NCBI RefSeq assembly: GCF_009690625.1
Contig: NZ_CP033878.1
Span: 2,108,001-2,172,000, forward strand
Reading direction: 5' to 3'
DNA from: Halorhabdus sp. CBA1104
GTDB lineage: Archaea > Halobacteriota > Halobacteria > Halobacteriales > Haloarculaceae
DNA length: 64,000 nucleotides
In this document: positions 32,704 through 50,730 of the stretch, one piece after another
Position numbering within the stretch: the first letter of the stretch is position 1
Layout of the letters: every line of letters begins with the position of its first letter
Translations under genes and position numbers: made by a program
The notes under the pieces: model-generated
What the model saw: the letters and a program-made list of their open reading frames with translations, nothing else
Database searches by the model: none
Told to the model about the DNA's origin: nothing

Positions 32704-34682
32704 CTACTCGAACTTTCCGAGCAGCGTCGTGTAGAAGCCGTCGGTGTCGTCGGCAGCCAGTTTCTCGACGATCAGTTCGGGCGTCGAGCGCGCCAATGTG
32801 TCTTTTCGTGGGGTCCGATCGACCTGTAGCTCGCCGTCTTCGAGCCCGAGGGCCTGGATACCGTCGACGCCGAGTTCGCAGTCGGCAGTCTCACGGATTT
32901 CCCGAGCGAGATGGGAGACGAACACGGCAGTCTGGTCGCGCTCGCCCAGTGCTTCGAGGATGCCGGCCATGATCTTCGCGCTGGCCCCCGGCTCGGTGAT
33001 GCTCTCTAACTCGTCGACCAACACGAGCGTCTCGGCTTCGCTTGCGGCCTCGACGACCAGCTCGCCAAACGAGCGAAGCGTACTCTCGAAGGCCCCGGCG
33101 TCTAAGGTCCCTGAGTCTTTGCGTGGTAGTGCAGCGCATCGATCCGGCCGAGACGAGCCCGCTCGGCCGGCACTGGCAGCCCCATGTGAGCGAGGATGAC
33201 CACCAGTGCGAGCAGGTCCAGCGTCGAGGTCTTCCCACCACTGTTGACCCCCGAGAGGAGGCGAACGCCGGAAACCTCGTAATCGACAGGTTCGACTTCC
33301 TCGTGGGGAACGTCCAGCAACGGCGACCGGCCGCCCTCGATCGCAACCCCCTCGCCACCCAGTTCGGGCAACGTCGCGTCGAAATCCGCGGCAAAGCGGG
33401 CGATCGCGAGTTCGACGTCCAGTTCGAGGGCGGCCTCGACCAGGGTCTCGCTCTGCTCGCGCATCGCCGCCAGGTCGTCGGCCAGGTCTGCTTTCAGCGC
33501 CTCGGCGCGCCGATCGCGGGCAGTCGTCAGTTCCTCACGAGCCCGTGAAACGATACTGTCCTCACGCTCGACGGGAAACGTGGGTTCGTCCGAGAACGCC
33601 CGCCGGGCGATATCGGCAGTCTCCCGGAGATCCAAGGTGTCGACGACGTGCTCGCGAGCCGCCGCGACGGCATCGGCGTACTCGGCGGCCAGTTCCCGAG
33701 AGAGCACTTCGTCGACGCCGGCACCGCGTTCGACCAGCGACAGCAGATCCGCGCCTTCGATCGTGACGTCCTGTTGCTCGATTGCCGCCCGGAGACGGTC
33801 GTTCGCGACGGACTCGGCTTCGCTCATCGCCGGGTCGAGATCGTCGACGGCCCGGGTGAGTCGCTGTAGTTCCTCGTCACCGGTCGGGGTGCCATCCTCG
33901 TCGAGTCGATCGAGGGCTGCTTCGAGGGCATCCAGATCACAGGGGGGTTCCAGGTCGGCGTGCCGGTGGACCGCGATCGCAGCGAGCAGGCGGTCACGAT
34001 TGTGCGCAAAGAACGAAAGGGGCCGTTCGGGGACGACTGCGGCCGGGTCCTCGACGGCGTTGGGTTCGACTCGCACGTCACCATCGACGTCGACACCGGC
34101 AAAGGCCTCATCGAGGGCGATCACCGTCGCGTACCCGCGGGCGAGTTCCGCCAGGTCCCGGGTATCCTCGACGACTTCGACGCTGACCTCGGGGATTGCC
34201 TCCCGCGCCGTCGCGTAGGTCTCGCCGTCCGTCGTCGCCAGACAGCGGTCCCGAACCCGGACGTCGCCCGGTTCGTCGAGCGGCTCGACGCCGCTCAGTG
34301 CCGACAGCGTCGCCTCGTCAGGATCCCGTTCCATGGCCCGCTCGGCCAGGTGACGGACGTCGGTAATGCGGCTCTGGCTGGCGCTGGGATAGAGAGTCCG
34401 GAGTCGTGCGGCCGCGTAGTCGGTGACGGTCCGGTCTTCCAGCAGTGCGAGGGCGTCCTGATAGACGTCCTGGGCGCGGGGCGTCGCGAGGAACGTCGCC
34501 GTGTCGTCGTGGCGTTGCTGGATCGCCGCCCGGACGATTCGGGCGGCCCGCCCCTCACCGATCCCCGGTGCACGGGCGACCCGTGCGACGTCGCCGGCTT
34601 CGATCGCCGCCGCCGGGTCGTCCAGTTCGGCCAGCCGGTCGGCGGTCTTCTCGCCGACGCCCGGGATCGCCGTCAGTTCCAT
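32704..34682 (-). pseudogene. MutS-related ATPase with helix-hairpin-helix start, frameshifted
   Basis: The intact protein would be about 658 residues. The N-terminus is a helix-hairpin-helix (IPGVGEKTADRLAELDDP, with APGIGEGRAARIV). Walker A is SGVNSGGKTSTLDLL near residue 487. The frame ends at TAG 33102 after HYHAKTQGP, but protein-like coding continues in a second frame as TLDAGAFESTLRSFGE and the Walker B region LVLVDELESITEPGASAK to 32704. One G/C pair is missing in the run at 33109-33111. The family is MutS2/MutS5-like, not the mismatch-repair MutS proper. Whether the shift is real or a sequence error is open; no other lesion is seen. Confidence 0.78.
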
Positions 34683-49648: not shown

Positions 49649-50730
49649 ATGGAGCCACGCCACGCGCGGTATCCGTTTCTGGGCTCGGCCAGGGAGGCCG
49701 TCGAAGCGGCCGACGTCGATCTCGTGACTGTTGCCCGCGAAGGCGGACCGGCCGTCGATCGCGGTCGCGAGCGAATCCTCTCGGGGCTGTTCGAGGGGAC
49801 AGTCGGTCAGACCCATCGCCGACCCCGCGTGGAACTGCTCTCCTATCCGGTGGCCCGAGTCCTCGTCTCGCTGGTCGACCAGCCGGCCCTGACCCACCGG
49901 TATGCCCGTGCCGAGGCCGCAACAGCCCACGAGCGCTTTCAGGAGGACTTGACGGCAACGTCGTTCCGTTCGACGGACGGACAGCAGCTAACCCTCGGAA
50001 CGTTGCTTGCCGAGTTCGATCTGCGCGGGGCTGTCGAGCCGGTCGGGACCACCGGTCTGGACGATGCCGATCGGTTTTCGGTGGCCGTCGGGACCTACCT
50101 GGAACTGGCGGCCGGGGAGTACAGCGACGACTGGCGGCTCGTCAACCGGTCGCTTGCCGACGGTCGGGTGCCGATCGACCGCGAGGAATTGCTCGAATTG
50201 CTTCGGGCGGCCGTCGAAGAACGAGTACTAGAGGGGTTGCCCCTGAACGTCCCCGAGCCGATCGCCGAGGGGCTCACCGAGGACGTCGAGACCATCAGCG
50301 AGCGACTCGACGAACTCGATTTGACCCGGGAGATCGATACCGTCGTGCCCGAACTGTTTCCCCCTGTATGACCGCCTTGCTCGATCAGATACAAAAGGGC
50401 GAACACCTCGCCCATCACTCGCGGTTCGCGATCACCTCGTTTCTGACTTCGATCGGAATGACGACCGACGATATCGTCGACCTCTACGAGATGAATCCTG
50501 GCTTCGGCGAGGAGATGACGCGCTATCAGACCGACCACATCCGGGGCGAAACGTCACCGACCGAATACTCCCCGCCCGCCTGTGCGACCATGCAGTCTTA
50601 CGGTGACTGCGTGAACATGGACGATCTCTGTGAGGAGATCTCCCATCCGCTGTCCTACTACGAGGCCAAGTTAGAGGATACCGACGAAGATGAAGTGGTC
50701 GATTGGCGAGAGCGCGAGGCCGCCGAGTGA
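49649..50730 (+). CDS. priL: DNA primase large subunit PriL, frameshifted at a C-run
   Basis: PriL is the Fe-S regulatory subunit of the primase that makes primers for replication. Together the two frames give about 360 residues. Frame one runs from ATG 49649 (MEPRHARYPFL) to TGA 50371 and ends IDTVVPELFPPV. The expected text is FPPC followed by MTALLDQIQKGEHLAHHSRFA, which is in the next frame from 50365 and runs to TGA 50730. A single C is missing in 50360-50364. The frame-two part has three Cys (PPACATM, GDCVN, DLCEE); the fourth 4Fe-4S Cys is exactly the one lost at the break. ATG 50368 overlaps TGA (ATGA), so a split translation is possible. Because priL is normally essential, a sequencing error is plausible. 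Confidence 0.88.

Follow-up and report, generated by a model that had tools for sequence, protein, structure and literature searches.

Does Halorhabdus sp. CBA1104 divide the large subunit of its primase (PriL) between two polypeptides, or has a base been lost from the sequence record? In the window (the whole stretch of DNA analysed, 64,000 nucleotides), the reading frame of priL, encoded on the plus strand, shifts at a run of five C's at 50360-50364, which lies within TTTCCCCCTGTATGA (50357-50371). The upstream frame starts at the ATG at 49649 and ends ...VVPELFPPV* at a TGA (50369-50371) made by the frame change; this first part (49649-50371) comprises the N-terminal domain up to FPP. The downstream frame starts at the ATG at 50368, reads MTALLDQIQKGEH... 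and runs to a stop at 50728-50730; this second part (50368-50730) comprises the C-terminal Fe-S domain with cysteines two to four. The start of the second part and the stop of the first overlap as ATGA. A sequence-only reading had described a frame switch inside the motif FPPC, and had proposed either a one-base error or two coupled polypeptides with an altered Fe-S cluster. The switch itself is borne out by the sequence.

The two parts match consecutive portions of the NCBIfam model for PriL (NF002590, 358 positions): positions 3-233 for the first part (335 bits) and 235-353 for the second (238 bits). Neither part alone attains the model cut-off of 459 bits, whereas the intact PriL of H. salina scores 602 bits. 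The continuity of the matches across the two parts indicates a single priL gene in which the frame shifts by one base. A Pfam scan of the first part gave no match, although NCBIfam did match it, and a phmmer search of solved structures with the second part as query also gave none. The genome is a single contig of 2.63 Mb and contains one priL match and no second copy; one PriS is encoded elsewhere. In its consecutive model matches, single copy number and separately located PriS, as well as in three of its four invariant cysteines, the locus resembles other haloarchaeal PriL (NF002590, PF04104). It differs in its shift of frame, which lies between model positions 233 and 235 and puts the first cysteine out of frame.

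Comparison with H. salina, counted without gaps, gave 21, 5 and 71 differences at the first, second and third codon positions upstream of the break and 3, 2 and 38 downstream. Third positions are in excess on both sides, and thus both frames carry what is, by these counts, the signature of one conserved protein that was under purifying selection until very recently. Conservation of both frames until so recently is to be expected if the record is in error.

The [4Fe-4S] cluster of archaeal and eukaryotic PriL is coordinated by four conserved cysteines (PMC2852410), and each of these is present without exception in the 68 distinct relatives compared. In priL as written, the first is absent from both frames and the other three are in the second frame, as the sequence-only reading had stated, and no single chain contains the four. 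A single long open frame runs through FPPCM at 74 of 74 relative loci that were fetched, where the stretch has one base more than it does in the window. The earlier expectation of six C's is correct as to length. Which base is missing is less secure: it need not be a C, because the first proline codon at the break site is mostly CCG in the relatives.

A search with PF04104 of 109 same-family genomes that are at least 90% complete, this one included, placed the start of the match at profile position 1-4 in 108 of the 108 others and at position 106 only in CBA1104. The sequence-only reading had suggested, among other checks, looking for a split priL in close relatives; none was found among the 74 fetched loci or the 108 other same-family genomes, and priL is intact in all six congeners examined. 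As far as these genomes extend, no assembly other than this one has the split. In one genus of the family (G009, G028, G089-G093) PF04104 scores are markedly weaker (E values of 1e-7 to 1e-13), and some of the matches span only about 150 of the 266 positions.

These comparisons bear directly on the proposal that a real, recent one-base deletion has left the cell with a primase of two translationally coupled polypeptides, with a [4Fe-4S] cluster that has three cysteine ligands or is assembled in another way. The ATGA overlap on which coupling would depend is indeed present in the sequence as given. However, its ATG is the conserved methionine codon of FPPCM, where the loss of one base creates the overlap automatically; the overlap is a by-product of that loss and provides no evidence for coupling. 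The break coincides with the beginning of the Fe-S domain, which folds independently in yeast primase, but the cysteine that would be lost is the invariant one, and primase activity is reported to need the integrity of the cluster (PMC2852410). No relative shares the split, and pheT, another single-copy gene of the same genome, has two breaks of this kind (see below). We therefore consider a functional split very improbable, and the coupled-polypeptide option of the sequence-only reading is not upheld.

Frame breaks were sought elsewhere in the assembly by comparing 884 kb, in two separate stretches that make up about a third of the genome, with proteins of H. salina and other Halorhabdus genomes; each candidate was then read by eye. 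This census, which counts breaks in conserved coding sequence only, confirmed seven breaks, distributed over six conserved genes. In addition to the C5 run of priL, two breaks (genome near 2339091 and 2339550, at C5 and G4 runs) divide pheT, the only match in the genome, into three pieces. A gene for a MutS/MutS2-like ATPase on the minus strand of the window (32707-34682) is broken near 33114 at a GGG run, and the gene for a haloarchaeal RNase HI is broken at a G5 run (genome near 1904853). Two genes for conserved proteins that have no NCBIfam match, of 314 and 275 aa in genome G004, are each broken at a C5 run (genome near 174650 and 1998935, respectively). The RNase HI, 314-aa and 275-aa genes were each judged against a single reference genome. 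The MutS/MutS2-like gene encodes an N-terminal helix-hairpin-helix-like part, and is unbroken in H. salina and G004.

Several other candidates were rejected. The apparent breaks at genome positions 2207661 and 211960 reflect over-extended starts of the reference ORFs, and at 2194424 it is the H. salina reference that is likely frameshifted. Several in-frame "stops" proved to be start over-calls, misaligned regions or antisense ORFs. The reverse comparison, of 250 CBA1104 proteins against the DNA of relatives, and the comparison of H. salina and G004 in both directions (about 80 proteins each) together revealed no convincing break in relatives other than a likely one in a histidine kinase of H. 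salina. The histidine-kinase gene is likely frameshifted in H. salina (C12 near 293283-294416); in CBA1104 it has an open frame and an intact H-box.

All seven breaks fit the loss of one base from a G or C run, and the runs left behind are four of C5 and one each of G5, G4 and G3. G/C runs of at least three bases make up 9.6% of the bases in 204 confirmed full-length genes of this genome, so the probability that seven of seven randomly placed deletions would fall in such runs is about 1e-7 (independence assumed). The placement points to a slippage-like process. Alone, it does not separate the cell from the sequencer, because true slippage mutations favour runs too. G/C runs of five and six bases showed no clear depletion relative to those of relatives, a comparison of homopolymer-length spectra that carries little weight either way. 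Given that such runs are not grossly depleted, under-calling would be sporadic rather than systematic. Judged from the assembly alone, a genuine recent slippage mutation at the priL site retains a small probability.

Slippage could also take place during expression. In one version, ribosomes would slip by -1 at the C5 run, in a programmed or efficient manner, with the proline tRNA moving from CCU to CCC to give FPPC and a full-length PriL. The codon context permits such single-tRNA slippage with restoration of FPPCM, and some of the other breaks likewise fall at CCC CCT. However, breaks also occur at G runs, which are three to five bases long, and the mechanism would have had to originate separately in each of six unrelated genes within a single lineage. 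Moreover, in intact genes of this genome the frame does not change at any of 98 C5 runs, 14 of which share the phase of the run in priL. Nor is the frame change conserved, as priL is a single open frame at all 74 relative loci. Recoding of this kind at priL seems highly unlikely to us. The broader version, in which the five-C sequence is real and the lineage makes full-length PriL, PheT and the other proteins through slippage of the ribosome or of transcription at short G/C runs, has in our estimate an equally slight chance of being correct.

Both priL and pheT are essential. The breaks affect single copies of these genes in cells that must nevertheless have replicated and translated, which favours an error in the record over one in the cell. 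A cell that lacks both PriL and PheT is not plausible, and residual homopolymer indels explain the breaks far better than the alternatives. Thus, we infer that the cell has the base and the sequence record lacks it, and we regard it as nearly certain that an ordinary priL has acquired a residual indel during sequencing or assembly. The one-base-error option of the sequence-only reading is strongly supported in this respect, given the similar breaks in five other genes, including pheT, and the intact gene in all the relatives examined. In the living cell, priL would be one intact, ordinary gene. The assembly would have dropped a base from the C run within the FPPC codons, or from right next to it, and so split the reading frame, and the loss would be a residual homopolymer indel, most likely from long-read sequencing.

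Errors in long reads are predominantly homopolymer indels, which fragment genes (PMC12007338). The breaks in the CBA1104 assembly are similar in being one-base homopolymer losses, in runs of three to five bases as assembled, that affect unrelated conserved genes, including essential ones. They differ from the published example, in which more of the losses are in A/T runs, in that all are in G/C runs. PacBio sequencing is described for one Halorhabdus strain, which may or may not be the present one (PMC11001535); papers on Halorhabdus sequencing yielded no platform for the CBA1104 assembly.

If the split were true, CBA1104 would have the sole primase large subunit among those examined that is without the first cluster cysteine, and nothing supports such a split. 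By rough extrapolation, residual homopolymer indels in this assembly may number several dozen genome-wide. Single frameshifts in this assembly should therefore not be taken as biology without recourse to the reads.
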